Positions 14,154-22,217 of a DNA stretch of 34,429 bases are shown here, piece after piece. Under the pieces are notes generated by a model. The model worked only from the letters and a program-made list of their open reading frames with translations, had not been told where the DNA came from and made no database searches. Each line of letters starts with the position of its first letter. Position 1 is the first letter of the stretch. Position numbers and translations under genes: made by a program. This stretch comes from Sulfurovum sp. (GTDB lineage Bacteria; Campylobacterota; Campylobacteria; Campylobacterales; Sulfurovaceae): the NCBI GenBank assembly GCA_030949325.1, contig JAUZSQ010000111.1, positions 1 through 34,429 on the forward strand. Reading direction: 5' to 3'.

Positions 14154-14846
14154 ATGGAATTATGTGTAGCACTAGATTTACCATCACAAAAAGAGAATTT
14201 GGCACTAGCAGAGTCACTAAAGGGCTATGATATTTGGATGAAAGTAGGGTTTCGTGCCTATATTCGTGATGGTAAGGCATTTATCCAAGCCCTCAAAGCA
14301 ATCAATCCAAAATTCAAGATATTTTTGGATTTAAAGCTTTATGATATACCCAACACCATGGCAGACGCTTCCGAAGAGATAGCCAAGCTAGGGGTAGATA
14401 TGTTTAATATTCATGCAAGTGCAGGGTCTGTGGCTATGAAAACAGTGATGGATAGACTCTCTTCTTATGAGAATCGTCCGTTGGTATTGGCTGTGACGGC
14501 ATTGACTTCTTTTGATGAAAGCCATTTTAAAGAGGTTTATGAAAAGGGTATCCAGAGTAAAGCAGAACAGTTTGCCAAGATGTCTTATGCACAAGGTTTA
14601 GATGGTGTGGTCTGTTCTACCTTTGAGAGTCGTGCTATCAAAGAGGCTACTTCACAGAAGTTCCTGACACTCTGTCCTGCGATTCGTCCTTTTGGAGAGG
14701 AGGCAGGAGACCAAGAACGTGTGGCTACTTTGGAATTGGCAGAGCAAGAAGGGGTAGATTATCCTGTGATAGGTCGTCCTATATATAATGATAGTCATCC
14801 AGCACAAAAAGTAGCAGAGATACTCAAAGTACTTTCTACCTTGTAA
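14154..14846 (+). CDS. pyrF: Orotidine 5'-phosphate decarboxylase
   Basis: Last step of UMP synthesis. Substrate and catalytic residues are visible: Asp8 in CVALDLP, Lys30 in WMKVGF, and the DLKLYDIPNT signature (59-68) with Asp59, Lys61 and Asp64. GRPIYN near the C-terminus binds phosphate. Length is 230 residues, normal for the bacterial family. AGGGAG lies a few bases before the ATG. It stands alone; the downstream neighbour on the opposite strand overlaps its 3' end by 11 bases. Confidence 0.94.
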   Translation: MELCVALDLPSQKENLALAESLKGYDIWMKVGFRAYIRDGKAFIQALKAINPKFKIFLDLKLYDIPNTMADASEEIAKLGVDMFNIHASAGSVAMKTVMDRLSSYENRPLVLAVTALTSFDESHFKEVYEKGIQSKAEQFAKMSYAQGLDGVVCSTFESRAIKEATSQKFLTLCPAIRPFGEEAGDQERVATLELAEQEGVDYPVIGRPIYNDSHPAQKVAEILKVLSTL

Positions 14847-14955
14847 TCTCATGTTTGTTCTTGGTCATATCGACAGCATTGTCCATACCTGTCATCATAA
14901 AGTACATTCCTGTCATAAAAACGGCTAGGATGAGTAAAGGGGTAATTTTTTGCAT
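14836..14955 (-). CDS. Met-rich 39-residue small membrane protein
   Basis: A short open frame, MQKITPLLILAVFMTGMYF then MMTGMDNAVDMTKNKHEITR, with seven Met in 39 residues and one predicted transmembrane helix (about residues 5-22) followed by a short polar tail. I do not recognise it. Support is good for such a short gene: AAAGGAAG (rc of 14961-14968) sits five bases before the ATG, and a TATAAT (rc of 14983-14988) lies 27 bases upstream of the ATG. It overlaps the last 11 bases of pyrF on the other strand. Confidence 0.55.
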   Translation of the reverse strand: MQKITPLLILAVFMTGMYFMMTGMDNAVDMTKNKHEITR

Positions 14956-15002
14956 AAGTGCTTCCTTTGAAATAATATGATAATTATATCACTAATTTTA
15001 GA

Positions 15003-15031
15003 TAGAATACTTTTTTAAGAGCTAGAGGAGG
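15003..15031 (+). promoter_or_regulatory. Promoter and strong ribosome binding site of the coiled-coil/GTPase operon
   Basis: A TAGAAT hexamer at 15003-15008 is followed by AGAGGAGG with GGAGG at 15027-15031, eight bases before the ATG at 15040. This is the only clear promoter-like element in front of the four-gene run 15040-19204, apart from a GATAAAAT near 17528-17535 before the GTPase. Confidence 0.45.
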
Positions 15032-15039
15032 ATTTAGAT

Positions 15040-15615
15040 ATGAATGGACAAATGAGAGAAGTACAAGATAGTATTAATACCGCCAAAAATGTTGAACAAA
15101 TTAGAGATATTATTTTTGGGACACAGACCAAAGAATTTGATACACGGATTACACAACTAAGTGACAATCTAAATGAGCTAGAGACTAAGTTAACCAAAAT
15201 GATTTATGATTCGCATATGAAACTCAAAACAGACAGTGAACGCTCTTTTACGATGCTAGAGAAGACAGTAGAAAATATACGAATGACCATAGCCAAAGAC
15301 AGTATTTCTATGAAAGAGCAGAGTAATCTAAGAGAGCTTAACTTACAAAATAAGATGACAGCACAGAATCAATTACTCGTACGGAAACTCAACAACCTGA
15401 AGCATTTGATTGATGAAGAAAAACGGACTAATCAGGAGAACCTCTATCGTATCAAAGACGAAATCCAAACAACGTTAGACTTAGAGCTACAAAGTCTTTC
15501 TGATAATAAGCTCTCTCGCAATAAAATGGCAGAAATGTTTTTGGATATTGCCATGCGTTTACAAGGAGAGACCCCGACTCAGATTTTGGATGAAGGGATA
15601 CAAACTGGAAACTAA
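15040..15615 (+). CDS. Coiled-coil cytoplasmic protein, first gene of GTPase operon
   Basis: 191 residues, almost wholly predicted helical with heptad-like Leu/Ile spacing (TRITQLSDNLNELETKLTKM; LVRKLNNLKHLIDEEKRTN). No signal peptide or membrane segment. The C-terminus LSRNKMAEMFLDIAMRLQGE resembles the tail of a little-described proteobacterial family found next to OmpA-like/GTPase genes, as far as I remember. GGAGG eight bases upstream gives a firm start. It ends 26 bases inside the next gene, which suggests coupled translation. Role unknown; a scaffold or regulator of the neighbouring membrane protein or GTPase is an inference from context only. Confidence 0.75.
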   Translation: MNGQMREVQDSINTAKNVEQIRDIIFGTQTKEFDTRITQLSDNLNELETKLTKMIYDSHMKLKTDSERSFTMLEKTVENIRMTIAKDSISMKEQSNLRELNLQNKMTAQNQLLVRKLNNLKHLIDEEKRTNQENLYRIKDEIQTTLDLELQSLSDNKLSRNKMAEMFLDIAMRLQGETPTQILDEGIQTGN

Positions 15616-16654
15616 AAACTCAGAACTAGAACAATTAAAAGTTTTACTTTTAAGTACTGAACTCCATCAACTCAAAGACTTAGAAACGAAATATCACAGC
15701 CTTGAAGAGGCTACGTATACACAAAAAAATATCGTGGATAAGGTAGTACTTTTATTTAATGAAGTCTTAGAGAAACGCTTTGAGGAAGAGGGTGAAGAGA
15801 CGGTCAAAATTTTCTCTAAGCATCTTCCCAAAATGATAGCCCAAACGTATAAGGACTCTCCTGCCCAACTGAGTTCTGTACTCAAAGAAACGATTGCCGA
15901 ATCTATCGCAGTAGGTATCGAAAACAACAAAGGGGTAATGGTAGATTCTCTTTATCCTATCATGGGTGGGATGGTCTCAAAGTATGTGAGTCAAGCCATT
16001 AAAGAGCTGATGCAAACTATCAATGCCAAGATAGACAATGGTCTCTCCATAGATAAGTATAAGCGTAAGATAAAGTCTAAAATCACAGGTGTGAGTGAGA
16101 TAGAACTTTTACTCAAAGAAGGTGGGGAAGCGAATATCTCTTCTTTGCTCATCATACAAAAAGAGAGTGGATTACTCATTGCCGAAGCACAAGTAGAAGA
16201 TAACCAAGCCTATGACCCCCACATGGTAGCCTCAATGGCTAGTGCTATCAAAGATTTTATCAATGATTGGATACAACAAAACCAAAGTCAAGATGAGGTG
16301 CAAACATTGACCTATGGGGATGCTACTTTATATATTGAGAGTGCAGGGTCTGTGTATATTATTGCCTTCTTAGACAAAGACCCAGAGTATGAACATCGTA
16401 GAGAAATCAATAGTTTTTTTGCCACTATTGTAAAAGAATATGCACCTTTTTTCCGTATTTTTGCTGGGGATGATTCGGCTACGCAGATTGTGAAGATAAC
16501 AGAAAAGATGCAGGATTATCTATCACTTCAAAATACTACAGCCAAGCCTAAGAAAAAGAAAAACTATGCAAAATACTTTTTAACTCTATTAGTATTGAGT
16601 TATATGGGGTATTTAGGATACAAAGCTGTCATTTTTATAGAGAATCTAGTGTAG
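15590..16654 (+). CDS. N-terminal part of OmpA-family protein: cytoplasmic longin/roadblock-like region and TM helix (split by an indel)
   Basis: About 354 residues in this frame. An N-terminal helical region (to about 120: LEQLKVLLLSTELHQLKDLE, VEEE-like stretches) precedes a domain beginning SSLLIIQKESGLLIAEAQVED and ending FFATIVKEYAPFF. I read this as a roadblock/longin-like fold, the kind that regulates small GTPases. A Lys-rich stretch (PKKKKN) and one transmembrane helix (YFLTLLVLSYMGYLGYKAV) follow, oriented so the domain is cytoplasmic. The ORF then stops, but adding one T to the T5 run at 16632-16636 joins it to the next ORF as IFYRESSVERKIMEETGQKVEV. The two ORFs are therefore one gene of about 640 residues. 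The ATG at 15590 lacks a good ribosome binding site; a TTG at 15548 is possible. Confidence 0.75.
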   Translation: MKGYKLETKNSELEQLKVLLLSTELHQLKDLETKYHSLEEATYTQKNIVDKVVLLFNEVLEKRFEEEGEETVKIFSKHLPKMIAQTYKDSPAQLSSVLKETIAESIAVGIENNKGVMVDSLYPIMGGMVSKYVSQAIKELMQTINAKIDNGLSIDKYKRKIKSKITGVSEIELLLKEGGEANISSLLIIQKESGLLIAEAQVEDNQAYDPHMVASMASAIKDFINDWIQQNQSQDEVQTLTYGDATLYIESAGSVYIIAFLDKDPEYEHRREINSFFATIVKEYAPFFRIFAGDDSATQIVKITEKMQDYLSLQNTTAKPKKKKNYAKYFLTLLVLSYMGYLGYKAVIFIENLV

Positions 16655-16665
16655 AGCGTAAGATT

Positions 16666-17508
16666 ATGGAGGAGACAGGACAAAAAGTAGAGGTACATTA
16701 TCAAGATGGGCATATCAGATTGGAAGGGTATGTAGCCGATATTGCACAGCTGAGTCAAATAGAGGCTATTACCGCAAGAGAAGAACCGTATCCTATTTCC
16801 AATTATCTCAGTATCCCTCAAAAATATTTGATAGATACTGAGATAACAGAGCTGAAAAATACCCTTCTTATACTTGATAAATCTTCTAAAGAAAGAGATA
16901 ATTTACTACTTTTGGAGAATCAAGTATTGAATGTAGAGTTGGCAGAGACTATTAAGGTACTCCATAAGATAAAACAAAATATCAATGAAGAAGTAGAATC
17001 TTTTGCCAAACAGAGTACTAGCATAAAAAATAAAATGGCCTCTAGCTTAGAGAAGGTTTTTTCCCAAAGTACTTTTTATCAGGAGACATCTTACTCTTTA
17101 AGCTTTGAAAGTCTCAATCTCTTTGTAGGTGGCAAGGCTAAGTATGAAGCTAAGGCAATGAAAATAATACAACGAAATTTTAATAAATATATAGAAGTAT
17201 TAGAAGCCTATAGTCCGTATATAGAGAGTATTATCATAGAAGGACATGCTGACAGTCGTGGTGATGAATTGGCTAATATGACACTATCGAAACAAAGGGC
17301 ATTGGCTGTGAGGCGTATTTTACTGCAATCGCCTACGCTCAAATTTTACAATATGCAAGGACTACTAGATATAGAAGTATTAGGTAGTCACGAGGTCATT
17401 AGTAAGGATGGGATAGAAGACCCTATCGCTTCTAGGCGTATAGAAATTCATTTTGAACTGAAAAGTAATAAAGCATTAGATAAACTTAAGAAAATAATAA
17501 GAGAATAG
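16666..17508 (+). CDS. C-terminal part of the same OmpA-family protein: BON-like and OmpA-like periplasmic domains
   Basis: 280 residues in this frame, but it very probably continues the preceding ORF after a one-base homopolymer loss. It opens with a BON-like stretch (VEVHYQDGHIRLEGYVAD), then a long helical linker (about 60-120). An OmpA-like peptidoglycan-binding domain follows: LNLFVGGKAKYEAKAMKIIQ, IIIEGHADSRGDELANMTLS with the conserved GHAD and a following Arg, and ASRRIEIHFEL at the end. In OmpA, MotB and Pal this fold holds diaminopimelate in peptidoglycan. With the upstream half, the protein would link the cell wall to a cytoplasmic regulatory domain. The local ATG at 16666 has no convincing ribosome binding site, which also argues for the fusion. 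Confidence 0.8.
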   Translation: MEETGQKVEVHYQDGHIRLEGYVADIAQLSQIEAITAREEPYPISNYLSIPQKYLIDTEITELKNTLLILDKSSKERDNLLLLENQVLNVELAETIKVLHKIKQNINEEVESFAKQSTSIKNKMASSLEKVFSQSTFYQETSYSLSFESLNLFVGGKAKYEAKAMKIIQRNFNKYIEVLEAYSPYIESIIIEGHADSRGDELANMTLSKQRALAVRRILLQSPTLKFYNMQGLLDIEVLGSHEVISKDGIEDPIASRRIEIHFELKSNKALDKLKKIIRE

Positions 17509-17570
17509 AATATCTTAAGTTTTAACAGATAAAATAGCCTAAGATGAATAATAAAGGATACTTAAAAGAA

Positions 17571-18047
17571 ATGATTAGAAAAAAAATACTGCTACTAGGT
17601 GATTTTTCAGTAGGTAAAACAAGTTTAGTAAGAAGATATGTAGATGGTGCATTTGATGATAAGTACCTTACGACTATAGGGGTCAAAATTGCCAAAAAAT
17701 ATTTTGAGGTAGCAGGGGTAGAATATGAGATGATTATTTGGGATGTAGAAGGTTCAACCCCTAGTAAGAAAATTGCCTTAGGCTATTACAAGGGTGCAAG
17801 TGGAGCTATTTGTGTGGCAGATAGCAGTAGAGAAGAGACGATAAAGGGACTAGAAAGACATAAAGAAATATTTTTACTCGAAAACCCCAAAGGAAAGATA
17901 GTCACAGCATATAACAAAATTGACCTCTTGGATGAAGCATCAAAAGCCAAGATACTCTTAGATGAGAATACCTTTTTAACTTCGGCAAAAGATGATGATT
18001 GTGTCGAAGAAGTCTTTCTACAACTGATGAGGCAAATGGTAGTATGA
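17571..18047 (+). CDS. Ras-like small GTPase
   Basis: Single-domain GTPase with all five G motifs: P-loop GDFSVGKTS, switch I Thr in YLTTIGVKI, DVEG (WDVEGS, with Ser where Ras has Gln61), NKID (AYNKIDLL) and SAK (TSAKDDD). It resembles the proteobacterial Rab/Ras-like family that opens MIRKKI-L-LLG and is found beside OmpA-like genes. I chose the ATG at 17571 because it gives this canonical N-terminus; an ATG at 17544 would add nine residues. A GATAAAAT lies near 17528-17535. The TGA overlaps the ATG of the next gene (ATGA, 18044-18047). Lack of the catalytic Gln suggests slow intrinsic hydrolysis and dependence on a partner GAP, as with MglA and MglB; that is inference. Confidence 0.88.
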   Translation: MIRKKILLLGDFSVGKTSLVRRYVDGAFDDKYLTTIGVKIAKKYFEVAGVEYEMIIWDVEGSTPSKKIALGYYKGASGAICVADSSREETIKGLERHKEIFLLENPKGKIVTAYNKIDLLDEASKAKILLDENTFLTSAKDDDCVEEVFLQLMRQMVV

Positions 18048-19204
18048 AAGATATACAAGCGATACTGAATATAGTCTTTAAGAAAGATTTATTTGAGTAT
18101 GTTCAAATAGATAAAGACTTTAATGTAGTGAATACTTCTTCAAATATTTGTAAATATGTAGAAGATATCCCCCAAAGAGGCTTACCTGTCTTTGATTACT
18201 TCCCTGAATTGGTAGGTATAGAAGAAGAGATGCATAATCTCTTTATTCATACAGAGGAAACATATTCTTTGGAATCAGTGTGCAAGAAAGCCTATTATGT
18301 CAATATGACGATTGACTATTATGATGAAAACAACCTCTTTATCTTACTTCATGATATTACAAGTATGACCGTTTCTAGTCAGAAGATTTTACAATATAGC
18401 AATGAATCTATTTTGGTTAACAATAGGTTACAAAAGATATTAAACAGTCAAAATGCACTCTTGTTTTGTACTTATGAAAATGATATATTATATAGTAATG
18501 CACAGTTTGAAGATTACTTTTGTACAGATATTATGATTGATTATGATATAAAAAAGTTAAATATCTATCAATATGTAGATGTACCCCTTGATGATTATAA
18601 TAGTCTATTTGACTATGTAAGCACAAAAGAAGAGTATATCTATATCAACGAGGATACGTTTATCCTACAAGCTACATCTATTAATCACAGTCATAAGCTT
18701 TTTACCCTCACTAAAGTGACTAAACTCACAGATAAAATGCATATAGACTTACTTACAGGAGCCTACAACAAATCTTATTTTGATATGCGACTCAAAAGGA
18801 TGATGCAAGAAGAGGGTGATTTTGTGGTAGTAGTCCTTGATTTTGATAATTTTAAAATGATTAATGATAGCTATGGACATCAAGTAGGGGATAGTGTGTT
18901 GAAAGAATGTTCTTCCTTGATAAAAGACAATATGAGAAAAGAAGATATTTTTGCAAGGTGGGGTGGAGAAGAATTTCTTTTGTTGTTGGAGTATCAAAAT
19001 ATGAGTGATATTATGGGCAAGATAGAAAGGGTACGCGAAATCATTGCCAAGCATACTTTTGCATCGATAGAGCGTTTGACTGTTAGTTTTGGTGTCTCAG
19101 CAAGACAAGAAGAAGATGATATAGATACCTTACTCAAAAGGGCAGATGAAGCACTTTACGAAGCCAAAGAGAGTGGTAAAAATAAAGTGATTTTTAAAAA
19201 GTAA
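18044..19204 (+). CDS. Sensor diguanylate cyclase (PAS-like region plus GGDEF domain)
   Basis: 386 residues. The N-terminal 220 residues appear to hold two PAS-like units (FEYVQIDKDFNVVNTSSN...; NALLFCTYENDILYSNAQFEDYF); there is no transmembrane segment. The C-terminal GGDEF domain begins DLLTGAYNKSYF, has the metal-binding VLDFDNFKMINDSYGH, an active GGEEF (RWGGEEF) and an inhibitory RxxD site (RKED) five residues before it. It should therefore make c-di-GMP and be product-inhibited. ATGA overlap with the GTPase gene indicates coupled translation, so the GTPase and the cyclase are probably one functional unit. Confidence 0.88.
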   Translation: MKDIQAILNIVFKKDLFEYVQIDKDFNVVNTSSNICKYVEDIPQRGLPVFDYFPELVGIEEEMHNLFIHTEETYSLESVCKKAYYVNMTIDYYDENNLFILLHDITSMTVSSQKILQYSNESILVNNRLQKILNSQNALLFCTYENDILYSNAQFEDYFCTDIMIDYDIKKLNIYQYVDVPLDDYNSLFDYVSTKEEYIYINEDTFILQATSINHSHKLFTLTKVTKLTDKMHIDLLTGAYNKSYFDMRLKRMMQEEGDFVVVVLDFDNFKMINDSYGHQVGDSVLKECSSLIKDNMRKEDIFARWGGEEFLLLLEYQNMSDIMGKIERVREIIAKHTFASIERLTVSFGVSARQEEDDIDTLLKRADEALYEAKESGKNKVIFKK

Positions 19205-19235
19205 TAAATTAAGCTTCTATTTAAGACTAATCTAC

Positions 19236-19259: not shown

Positions 19260-19350
19260 GGAGAGTTGGGAGAGTTGGTTTAATCCGCGCCCCTGCTAAG
19301 GGTGTGTAGCTTCACGGTTACCGAGGGTTCGAATCCCTCACTCTCCGCCA
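19260..19350 (+). tRNA. tRNA-Ser(GCT)
   Basis: Acceptor stem GGAGAGT pairs with ACTCTCC, followed by discriminator G and an encoded CCA. The anticodon loop CTGCTAA has anticodon GCT at 19295-19297, reading AGC and AGU. The anticodon stem is CGCCC/GGGTG. A long variable arm (GTAGCTTCACGGTTAC) is typical of class II serine tRNAs, and the T arm contains GGTTCGAATCC. It lies between the GGDEF gene and the 3' end of the convergent helicase gene. Confidence 0.96.
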
Positions 19351-19366
19351 TTTAATCCTAAAATTC

Positions 19367-22217
19367 CTACAGTAGAATACTCATAATTAACTCCTTCGAC
19401 TTCGACGAAAACCCCCCTCTTGTATTGCTAGTACTGCTATATCCTCGTTTGTTTTTGGAATGGCAAGTGTCACAGATGCTAAAACGATACGAGAAGTCTA
19501 AGGGTTTTTTACATTTACGGCATTGTTTGGTGAAGTGTCCTTGGCGTAAGGAGTTTTCTATATATTGATTGAGTCTAACTCTCGCTTCTAGGGCTTTGTC
19601 GGTATCTTGAAAAATATCAGGGAATTTAAAACTAAGCCATAGGTAAAGCGAAATTTCACGGACACGGTCTTCGGCGTTGAGTAACATATCGTTGGTTTGG
19701 GCAAACTCTGGCAGGTCTCTTGGAGGGATATAGAGGACTTGTCCACCTGCTTCTATTTGCTTGATGTAGCGATGAAAGGTGGCTTCTATATAAGGAGAAT
19801 GGATACTAGCAGGGGCACAGCTAAGAAAATACCGTGTTTTGAGTTCTAGGTGATACTCATCTACAATAGAAGCTATCTCTAGCATAGAGTCAATATTCGC
19901 AGCCACAAAAGGACCTTCAAATTCCATATTATCAGCAAAGAATCCCAAGATAGTACTGACATTGTCTGTCTCTAGTATCTCTCCTATGAGTAAGACATGT
20001 TCCAAACTTGCCATCACTGAGACAGGCAGTTTAATAGTAGGCAATGGGGCATAAAAGCAAGAAGTAATCGTTTCTAAGGCTTGGGCTTCTAGTGTGCCGA
20101 CATAGCCTTCTTCTTCAAAGCCATATCTTCCTGCTCGACCTGCGATTTGAGAGACTTCGCTGGGCAAGAGTTCGCGTCTGCGTAAGCCATCAAACTTGTT
20201 GTCTTTGGCAAAAAGCAGGGTTTTGATAGGGAGATTTAGCCCCATGGCAATGGCATCGGTGGAGACGAGGATTTGGCTTTGTCCATTTCTAAAACGCTTG
20301 GCTTCTTCACGCCTAACTTCAGGGGATAGATTCCCATAGATGACGGAGACACTGTACTGTTGGGAGAGTTGTTGTTTCAAAGAGAGTACGTCACGGCGAC
20401 TAAAGGCTACTATGGCAGTTTGTGGACTAATATCTTTTAAGGGAGTAGGCTCTTTCATCATGCTGAGGGTATTTTTACGCTCAAAATGGACAATCTCCAA
20501 AGGCTCATTGAGATAGGTACAAAGTTCTTGTACTGCTTCTAAGGCATTGGTAGAGCCTGTGAGTATCAGAGTCTTTGCAGGTATGCCCATGAGTGCATTT
20601 GCCCAAGCCCATCCACGGTCACGGTCACTTATCATTTGTATTTCATCAATCACACAGACATCCACATCTACAGAAGAGTTCATCATTTCAATTGTAGAAG
20701 AGATATGGGTAGATTCTTCATCAATAATCTCTTCTTCTCCTGTAATCAAAGAGACAGAAACACCACTTTTTTTGTAGGTTTTCATAGCCTTCCAAAGCCA
20801 AGAGACGTAAGGGTGCTAGATAATATCCTGTGGTGGCACTTTTGAGTGCTTCCATCGCTGTATAGGTTTTACCTGAATTCGTAGGGCCTACATGAAAGAT
20901 AATTTTACGTTTGAGTTGTCGTGCTAGAGGAAAAAGATTTTTGAAATCACGAATGGTTTTGGCGAGTAGTTCTTCACGTTTTTGCTTGGCTTGTAGGGGT
21001 TTAATATATTCTTGAAAATGAAATAAAATACGTCTTTTACTCTTTTCTTTGACTTTGAGTACAGCAGAAGCTTCGACTTGAGGGACAATGAATCGTACGA
21101 TAAAGTCTTCTAAGATACTTGTCTCTATCATCAATTTTCTATTTTGTTCTTGCATATCTTGGAACACTTCTTCTACAGCCCCTTCAAAGTGAGCGATGAG
21201 TTCATCAGTGACCCTGTCCATATCGCTTTGGACGGGCAAAGGGCTATGACTCCAAATGAGGTGATAGATAAAAGGCTTTTCATAGGAGACAGCACTAATA
21301 TATTCTACATTTTGCCCAAAGAGTGTATAGTGTTTGCTCTGTTCTACAATAAAGTGGTCGCTACTTTCAAAGAGTGTGTATTTGTCACTGATGGTATTGA
21401 GTAAATCTTCTATAATAAAGAGGTCAATAGGTGCATGGCTAAGGCTAGACTCACGAGGCATCGCTTTGAGAGAGCTATAGATATGCTTTTGGCTTAGATA
21501 GGGATGATTCTCTTGGCTAAGAGGGGTCAAAAATCTCTCAATTTCAAGTGACTTTTTTACAATACTTTCTGCTTTGATAACTTTTAACTGTACTATAATC
21601 TCTTCATCACTACTTTCCCACATATCATTGAGACTCAAAGAAGGGGTTTTACATAAAAGAAGTTTAGTAAAATCATATTGTTTTAACGCAAAAGTAAAGC
21701 TATGATAAAACTCCATTTCATTGCTGGTATTGCATTGTGCATCTAAGGCAGATTCCAAGGTCTTGAGTCTTTGAGAGAGACGCATATATTGTAGCTTGTT
21801 GAGTACTTTGTCCGAGGTAATTTTACTACTAGAGACATTGATAAATGCATCCAAAATGAGATTTTCTTCCTGCTGTGTATGGGGAGTCTCTTCTAGGAGT
21901 ATCAGTATTTTATCTACTTTATCGGTGACACGCTTGGGTTTGTCACTCTTGCTTGTATGCACAGACTTGTAGCTTTGGGTGAGATAAGAGACAATGAGTT
22001 CACGCGTACCTGCACCTTCTTCACTCCAAATACGACGTAAAGCCCGTACCATATCATCATGTGTATGAGAAGAGAGATTACGTTGAAGTAGCATAATAAG
22101 CTCTATGAGTTTATCATCATCTACACCTGCAATGCCTTCATCGAAAGCTTGTCCATTAAAATAGTTTCGTATTTTATTATTGAGTTTTATAAGATATTTT
22201 TGCTTTTTTTTTGCCAT
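19367..22217 (-). pseudogene. SUV3-like ATP-dependent RNA helicase, one frameshift (probably intact in the organism)
   Basis: Superfamily 2 helicase related to mitochondrial SUV3, which unwinds RNA for degradation. An N-terminal region of about 435 residues, helical and without known motifs, precedes Walker A GPTNSGKT (444-451), motif Ia [15 protein letters not shown] (motif II, as in SUV3), LTGSTNALEAV, and the C-lobe IAGRAGRYG. The C-terminus has a zinc-ribbon-like CRKCKK...CDTCHS and a short Gly/Ser/Arg tail. The two frames join in a T7 run at 20767-20773 (plus strand); removing one base gives [19 protein letters not shown] and a 949-residue protein. The ATG (22215-22217) has no ribosome binding site; a TATACT (rc of 22224-22229) is only six bases upstream, so the mRNA may be leaderless. 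Confidence 0.85.

Follow-up and report, generated by a model that had tools for sequence, protein, structure and literature searches.

Among described bacterial systems, the closest to the one considered here is built around the Group 1 Rup GTPases, which were described in 2014 by Wuichet and Sogaard-Andersen from genome comparison. The relevant passages of that paper report them as the bacterial GTPases most similar to eukaryotic Rab, Ran, Ras and Rho. They lack the Gln of the G3 motif, and the authors speculate that a partner supplies it (PMC4316618). Their conserved neighbours encode a coiled-coil protein, a protein that joins a conserved domain to a membrane helix and an OmpA domain, and an output protein. 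The output is typically either a histidine kinase or a fusion of diguanylate cyclase and phosphodiesterase, and its N-terminal part contains an invariant Gln. In the same passages, the partner domain is left unnamed, Rup is not linked to MglB homologs, and the authors state that experimental characterisation of any Rup member was still lacking. Group 1 is drawn there from Bacteroidetes, Chloroflexi, Cyanobacteria and gamma-Proteobacteria, and the epsilon-Proteobacteria are mentioned just for the wider Rup family (PMC4316618). Among the open-licence papers listed for this subject, we found no functional study of the Group 1 Rup system. Here, we describe a set of five plus-strand open reading frames (ORFs) in a 34,429-nucleotide stretch of Sulfurovum sp. 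DNA (the window; contig JAUZSQ010000111.1), which comes from a 2.53 Mb draft genome in 115 contigs. The set lies between pyrF (14154–14846) and tRNA-Ser(GCT) (19260–19350). Its components, together with key residues of its GTPase and output protein, suggest that on balance it represents a signalling system of the Group 1 Rup type. An earlier note on this DNA had considered it the best candidate for an undescribed system in the window, a view that does not hold in light of the 2014 description.

The small GTPase is encoded at 17544–18047, although its start is probably at 17571, because alignment with the ORFs of its relatives begins at residue 10 of the longest ORF. It matched Pfam Ras (5.6e-22) and Roc (5.3e-20), and the best 60 of 219 matches in the PDB (E ≤ 1e-10) were Rab, Ran and similar proteins, with no MglA among those 60. 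The Asp and Gly of the G3 motif were invariant in all 67 aligned GTPases, and none of the 67 had Gln at the G3 catalytic position. (The motif reads D-x-E-G, with Glu before the Gly, residue 69 of the window protein, in 66 of the 67.) By its sequence, the protein is thus a Rab-like Rup GTPase and not MglA; the earlier note was right to call it Ras-like, and had pointed to MglA with its GAP MglB for comparison. Since the GTPase lacks the G3 Gln, its partners may supply catalysis.

The output protein (18044–19204) starts with an ATG that overlaps the stop codon of the GTPase gene as ATGA, and the same 4-base overlap was present in 25 of 63 related loci having both ORFs. The window protein contains a GGDEF diguanylate cyclase domain (1.9e-41) and had no phosphodiesterase match. 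It had been described as a PAS-GGDEF cyclase; no PAS domain was detected in it at E ≤ 1, while eight of nine related outputs examined singly had a PAS match between residues 129 and 261. Nothing in Pfam matched ahead of residue 129 in any of these nine, which points to a shared N-terminal domain without a Pfam name. Within it, in the numbering of the window protein, E55 and G58 were present in 64/64 aligned outputs and Q117 (codon at 18392–18394) in 63/64. When eight further, independently found outputs were included, the counts were 70/72 for Q117 and 71/72 for N120, making a near-invariant QxxN motif.

Behind this shared domain, the output enzyme is freely swapped among loci. The 64 outputs that were scanned included matches to HATPase_c (31), HisKA (29), GGDEF (25), response regulator (23), Hpt (20), class III nucleotide cyclase (3) and sigma-54 activator domains (2); the EAL phosphodiesterase was absent among the best 25 of 26 families. 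A homologue search with the output N-terminal region returned 13 proteins, all of cyclase length, and the kinase outputs were collected from gene context. L025 and L048 (G009) have a further GTPase–output pair of the same kinds immediately after the first one, so that a single anchor precedes two switches.

The protein predicted to anchor the system is split in the window. Its first ORF (15590–16654) encodes long helices, a cytosolic domain (residues 182–315; 16133–16534) and a terminal membrane helix at residues 332–350 (16583–16639) by hydropathy, seen as a helix at 326–353 in the AlphaFold model. Its second ORF (16666–17508), in a different frame, encodes the periplasmic OmpA-like peptidoglycan-binding part, which matched Pfam OmpA at 1e-11 and the family's own profile at 2.3e-62. 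The OmpA end had been placed in the 15590–16654 product and is in fact this separate ORF, so that the four adjacent, overlapping genes of the earlier note are present as sequenced in five ORFs, with the coiled-coil, membrane-helix, GTPase and GGDEF products and the ATGA overlap all as described. The BON-like character also claimed for this end was only hinted at in the window (E = 0.12), with 15 of 84 relatives matching BON at E ≤ 0.1. The OmpA ORF was closer to ZorB (PADLOC ZorB1, 7.6e-25, residues 98–278) than to generic OmpA models; its NCBIfam ZorB2 score was 34 bits, where the cut-off is 400 bits. The anchor also gave a UppS match (20.3 bits; cut-off 109.55), which was dismissed as composition noise.

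In most full-length relatives the anchor is one protein, for example a single ORF of 591 residues in G019, whose DNA aligns with the window across the whole gene set at 75%. The first window ORF stops just past the membrane helix and the OmpA ORF begins without an export signal. Because the OmpA ORF is still open for 280 codons and matches its family strongly, and because relatives have one ORF, the frame break is either recent or an error of the draft. The nearby minus-strand gene for a Suv3-like helicase (19367–22217) also consists of two overlapping ORFs, of 472 and 498 residues, which carry adjoining pieces of one helicase domain (profile positions 57–153 and 3–64). Its frame may likewise be broken, and the split inclines the interpretation towards assembly errors.

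The earlier note also proposed that the cytosolic region of the anchor is roadblock- or longin-like, and structure prediction bore this out, even though no Pfam Roadblock match was listed for it. AlphaFold modeled the whole 15590–16654 ORF with a pLDDT of 67.6 and a pTM of 0.42, and the cytosolic domain alone with values of 77.9 and 0.72. In structure comparison, the similarity to the Roadblock/longin fold spanned the whole domain, confirming the fold as a prediction. MglB entries were tied with longins in the comparison of the domain alone; no MglB-type entry was among the best 50 matches listed for the whole ORF, which excludes nothing. A sequence search of the PDB with the domain gave nothing credible (best E = 0.32). 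Longin/Roadblock domains are listed as present in bacteria in general (PMC4917890), and among the literature matches listed for bacterial longins we found nothing on this anchor family.

The first gene of the set (15040–15615) encodes a coiled-coil-like cytosolic protein of 191 residues. An upstream ORF of 90–260 residues occupied this position at 71 of 79 related loci, and among 72 aligned coiled-coil proteins G27 was present in 71 and R22 in 69. A Gasdermin match of the window protein (2.5e-4, below the cut-off) was dismissed as composition noise.

Conservation of the gene order was followed with an anchor profile search, from which the best 80 of 133 loci were kept, corresponding to 79 named loci: 41 in Campylobacterota, 35 in Cyanobacteria and one each in Chlorobi, Ignavibacteriae and Bdellovibrionales. 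The GTPase gene was immediately downstream of the anchor at 65 of the 79, with a median spacing of 5 bases. For the 14 loci lacking an adjacent GTPase, nine genomes were searched (L052, L087, L089, L098 and L111 were left out), and the GTPase was found elsewhere in eight. In all eight, the gene directly after the relocated GTPase encodes an output that shares this N-terminal domain (E ≤ 1e-36), and at L047 and L050 the coiled-coil and anchor genes still lie between pyrF and tRNA-Ser while the GTPase–output pair is elsewhere. Because the relocated GTPases keep their output while the coiled-coil and anchor genes stay together, the set falls into two separable halves that are retained within one genome: the coiled coil with the anchor, and the switch with its output.

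Whole genomes gave the same picture. In a phylum sample of 397 genomes, the GTPase was present in 18 and the anchor in at least 17, all among those 18 and close by on the same contig, counting only anchor matches that start before profile position 30, so that generic OmpA matches were excluded. The 18th genome (G407) had only a short, weak GTPase match. Among 25 genomes of the genus, seven had the GTPase and seven the anchor, six having both; the other two were at contig ends. Ten loci were inspected in full: the complete order was present in seven, and contig ends cut the other three. Gene order is thus conserved far beyond chance, and the possibility raised by the earlier note, that it might be unconserved in relatives, can be set aside.

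Within the genus, the set appears as a cassette, occupying approximately 14972–19208 of the window (the left edge is uncertain, 14904–14971) and absent from cassette-free relatives. We retrieved pyrF loci from 30 of 51 matching genomes among 55 searched. In 22 of the 30, tRNA-Ser(GCT) follows pyrF after 214–352 bases; six have the start of the gene set after pyrF, and two have neither within the stretch examined. Homology with the cassette-free relatives restarts at 19209 (21 of 22 comparisons), 5 bases past the stop codon of the cyclase gene; on the left, the longest alignments end at about 14904–14971. In seven of 41 scanned loci, the tRNA-Ser is also found after the gene set, on its other side. 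In G024 and G015, the pyrF site is empty and the set is elsewhere on the same contig. The pyrF site reappears across the anchor tree, a pattern that an ancient site with repeated loss and relocation would explain as readily as repeated insertion would; a Pfam scan found no integrase or transposase match among the five ORFs. Between pyrF and the set lies a minus-strand ORF at about 14844–14955, with at least 37 codons and predicted to encode a short membrane protein; comparable small ORFs occupy the same place in several cassette-free relatives.

These features suggest how the system might work. The coiled-coil protein and the wall-anchored inner-membrane protein, with its Roadblock/longin domain, helix and periplasmic OmpA part, would form a sensing and docking half, and the Rab-like GTPase and its closely coupled output a signalling half. 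Through the OmpA tether, the condition of the wall or envelope would influence the way in which the Roadblock/longin domain holds, loads or resets the GTPase. Once in its GTP-bound state, the switch would bind the output at its conserved N-terminal domain and set the activity of the attached enzyme, a diguanylate cyclase in this case; that domain's conserved Gln may finish GTP hydrolysis and end the signal. We give this whole reading, a Group 1 Rup system with a putative route from wall through GTPase to cyclic di-GMP, a probability of about 0.6. The earlier note had proposed the same route, and the predicted fold and gene order remain consistent with it. Candidate catalytic residues are Q117 of the output, R159 of the anchor (80/80 aligned rows, and at least 90% in a wider set) and R22 of the coiled-coil protein, any of which may contribute. 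A split Arg/Gln pair of this kind recalls the dual-finger Rab GTPase-activating proteins (GAPs). The anchor domain might act as a GAP (as MglB does), as an exchange factor (as TRAPP or Mon1-Ccz1 do) or only as a dock. Only tentatively would we narrow this to a bacterial Rab-and-longin switch, in which the longin domain of the anchor would be an exchange factor or dock and hydrolysis would be completed in trans by Q117, perhaps with R159 or R22. On that reading, eukaryotes and Asgard archaea would not be alone in pairing Rab with longin, and contact with the output would in itself switch the signal off.

Several observations weigh against the proposed route. Roadblock/LC7 (PF03259) was not among the 25 Pfam families listed for 53 of the cytosolic domains at E ≤ 10, and profile–profile comparison with 37 Robl_LC7 domains gave a probability of 17–25% locally and 6% globally, which is suggestive only. 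SNAREs, adaptor subunits and other proteins that do not regulate GTPases can have the longin/Roadblock fold as well. In one of the nine genomes searched (G529), the anchor was present with no GTPase at the threshold used. Several relatives (L041, L054, L060 and others) have no OmpA part recognisable by the family profile, and wall anchoring is therefore not universal; many cyanobacterial anchors also lack the OmpA end by this profile, which may be too narrow there. Finally, the anchor gene is broken in the window copy. The set could thus be decaying in this genome, with a real frame break, a lost anchor and at most the GTPase and cyclase still cooperating. The positions of the two ORF ends and the absence or relocation of the set in many members of the genus agree with such decay, while the long open OmpA ORF with its strong family match, the open state of the other genes and the split helicase, as expected from errors in a 115-contig draft, speak against it. 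We consider decay possible at well under even odds, and it would be compatible with the wall-to-GTPase route for the family as a whole.

Another possibility is that the system concerns place rather than activity: the anchor would mark a position on the wall (pole, septum or new wall) and the GTPase would mainly recruit the output, whose activity would not be regulated by GTP. MglA-type systems act on polarity (PMC9481161 and others), the long predicted helices and the coiled-coil partner would suit a scaffold, and the output enzyme is freely swapped; the near-invariant QxxN motif suggests more than recruitment, and we regard this alternative as unlikely. The ZorB1 and ZorB2 matches, together with the patchy distribution of the set, raise the question of a Zorya-like defence or a motor-stator complex acting against phage, with a ZorB/MotB-like OmpA part. 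However, the ZorB2 score is far below its cut-off, the other four ORFs include no ZorA or other Zorya protein, and the set has a cytosolic Roadblock/longin domain, a Rab-like GTPase and signalling enzymes as outputs. We rejected an identification as Zorya, and a functional relationship is highly improbable.

Should the cytosolic domain prove to function as a Roadblock/longin regulator, a Rab-like switch and its eukaryote-like partner would occur together in ordinary bacteria that can be grown in culture, for example Nostoc. In 2012 it was proposed that eukaryotic longins derive from MglB-type domains (PMC3521125), and the occurrence in bacteria of a longin together with a Rab-like GTPase would bear directly on that proposal.

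Compared with known systems, the locus most resembles Group 1 Rup. All four components are present, the G3 Gln is missing, and the output has a Gln, Q117, which by its N-terminal location probably corresponds to the invariant Gln of the 2014 paper. It differs in that the anchor gene is split in the window, though intact in relatives, and in that the output contains GGDEF only, rather than the cyclase/phosphodiesterase fusion or histidine kinase given there as typical (PMC4316618). The predicted Roadblock/longin fold, the separable halves and the cassette site are new relative to the passages of that paper. Membership of the MglA/MglB family was rejected: the GTPase keeps the G3 Asp (67/67) and is Rab-like, the partner is anchored in wall and membrane with no Robl_LC7 match, and no Robl_LC7 protein was found in the whole source genome. 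The actinobacterial conservons (CvnA–D) likewise tie a small GTPase set to a membrane signalling enzyme, as outlined in the 2014 paper (PMC4316618), but that enzyme is a membrane histidine kinase, their MglB-type protein is separate and their GTPase belongs to the MglA family. Eukaryotic Rab proteins and their longin regulators (TRAPP, Mon1-Ccz1 and Fuzzy-Inturned) share the pairing of a Rab-like GTPase with a longin-fold protein; the present system is bacterial, uses one wall-anchored protein and feeds a signalling enzyme, and we do not propose a common origin.

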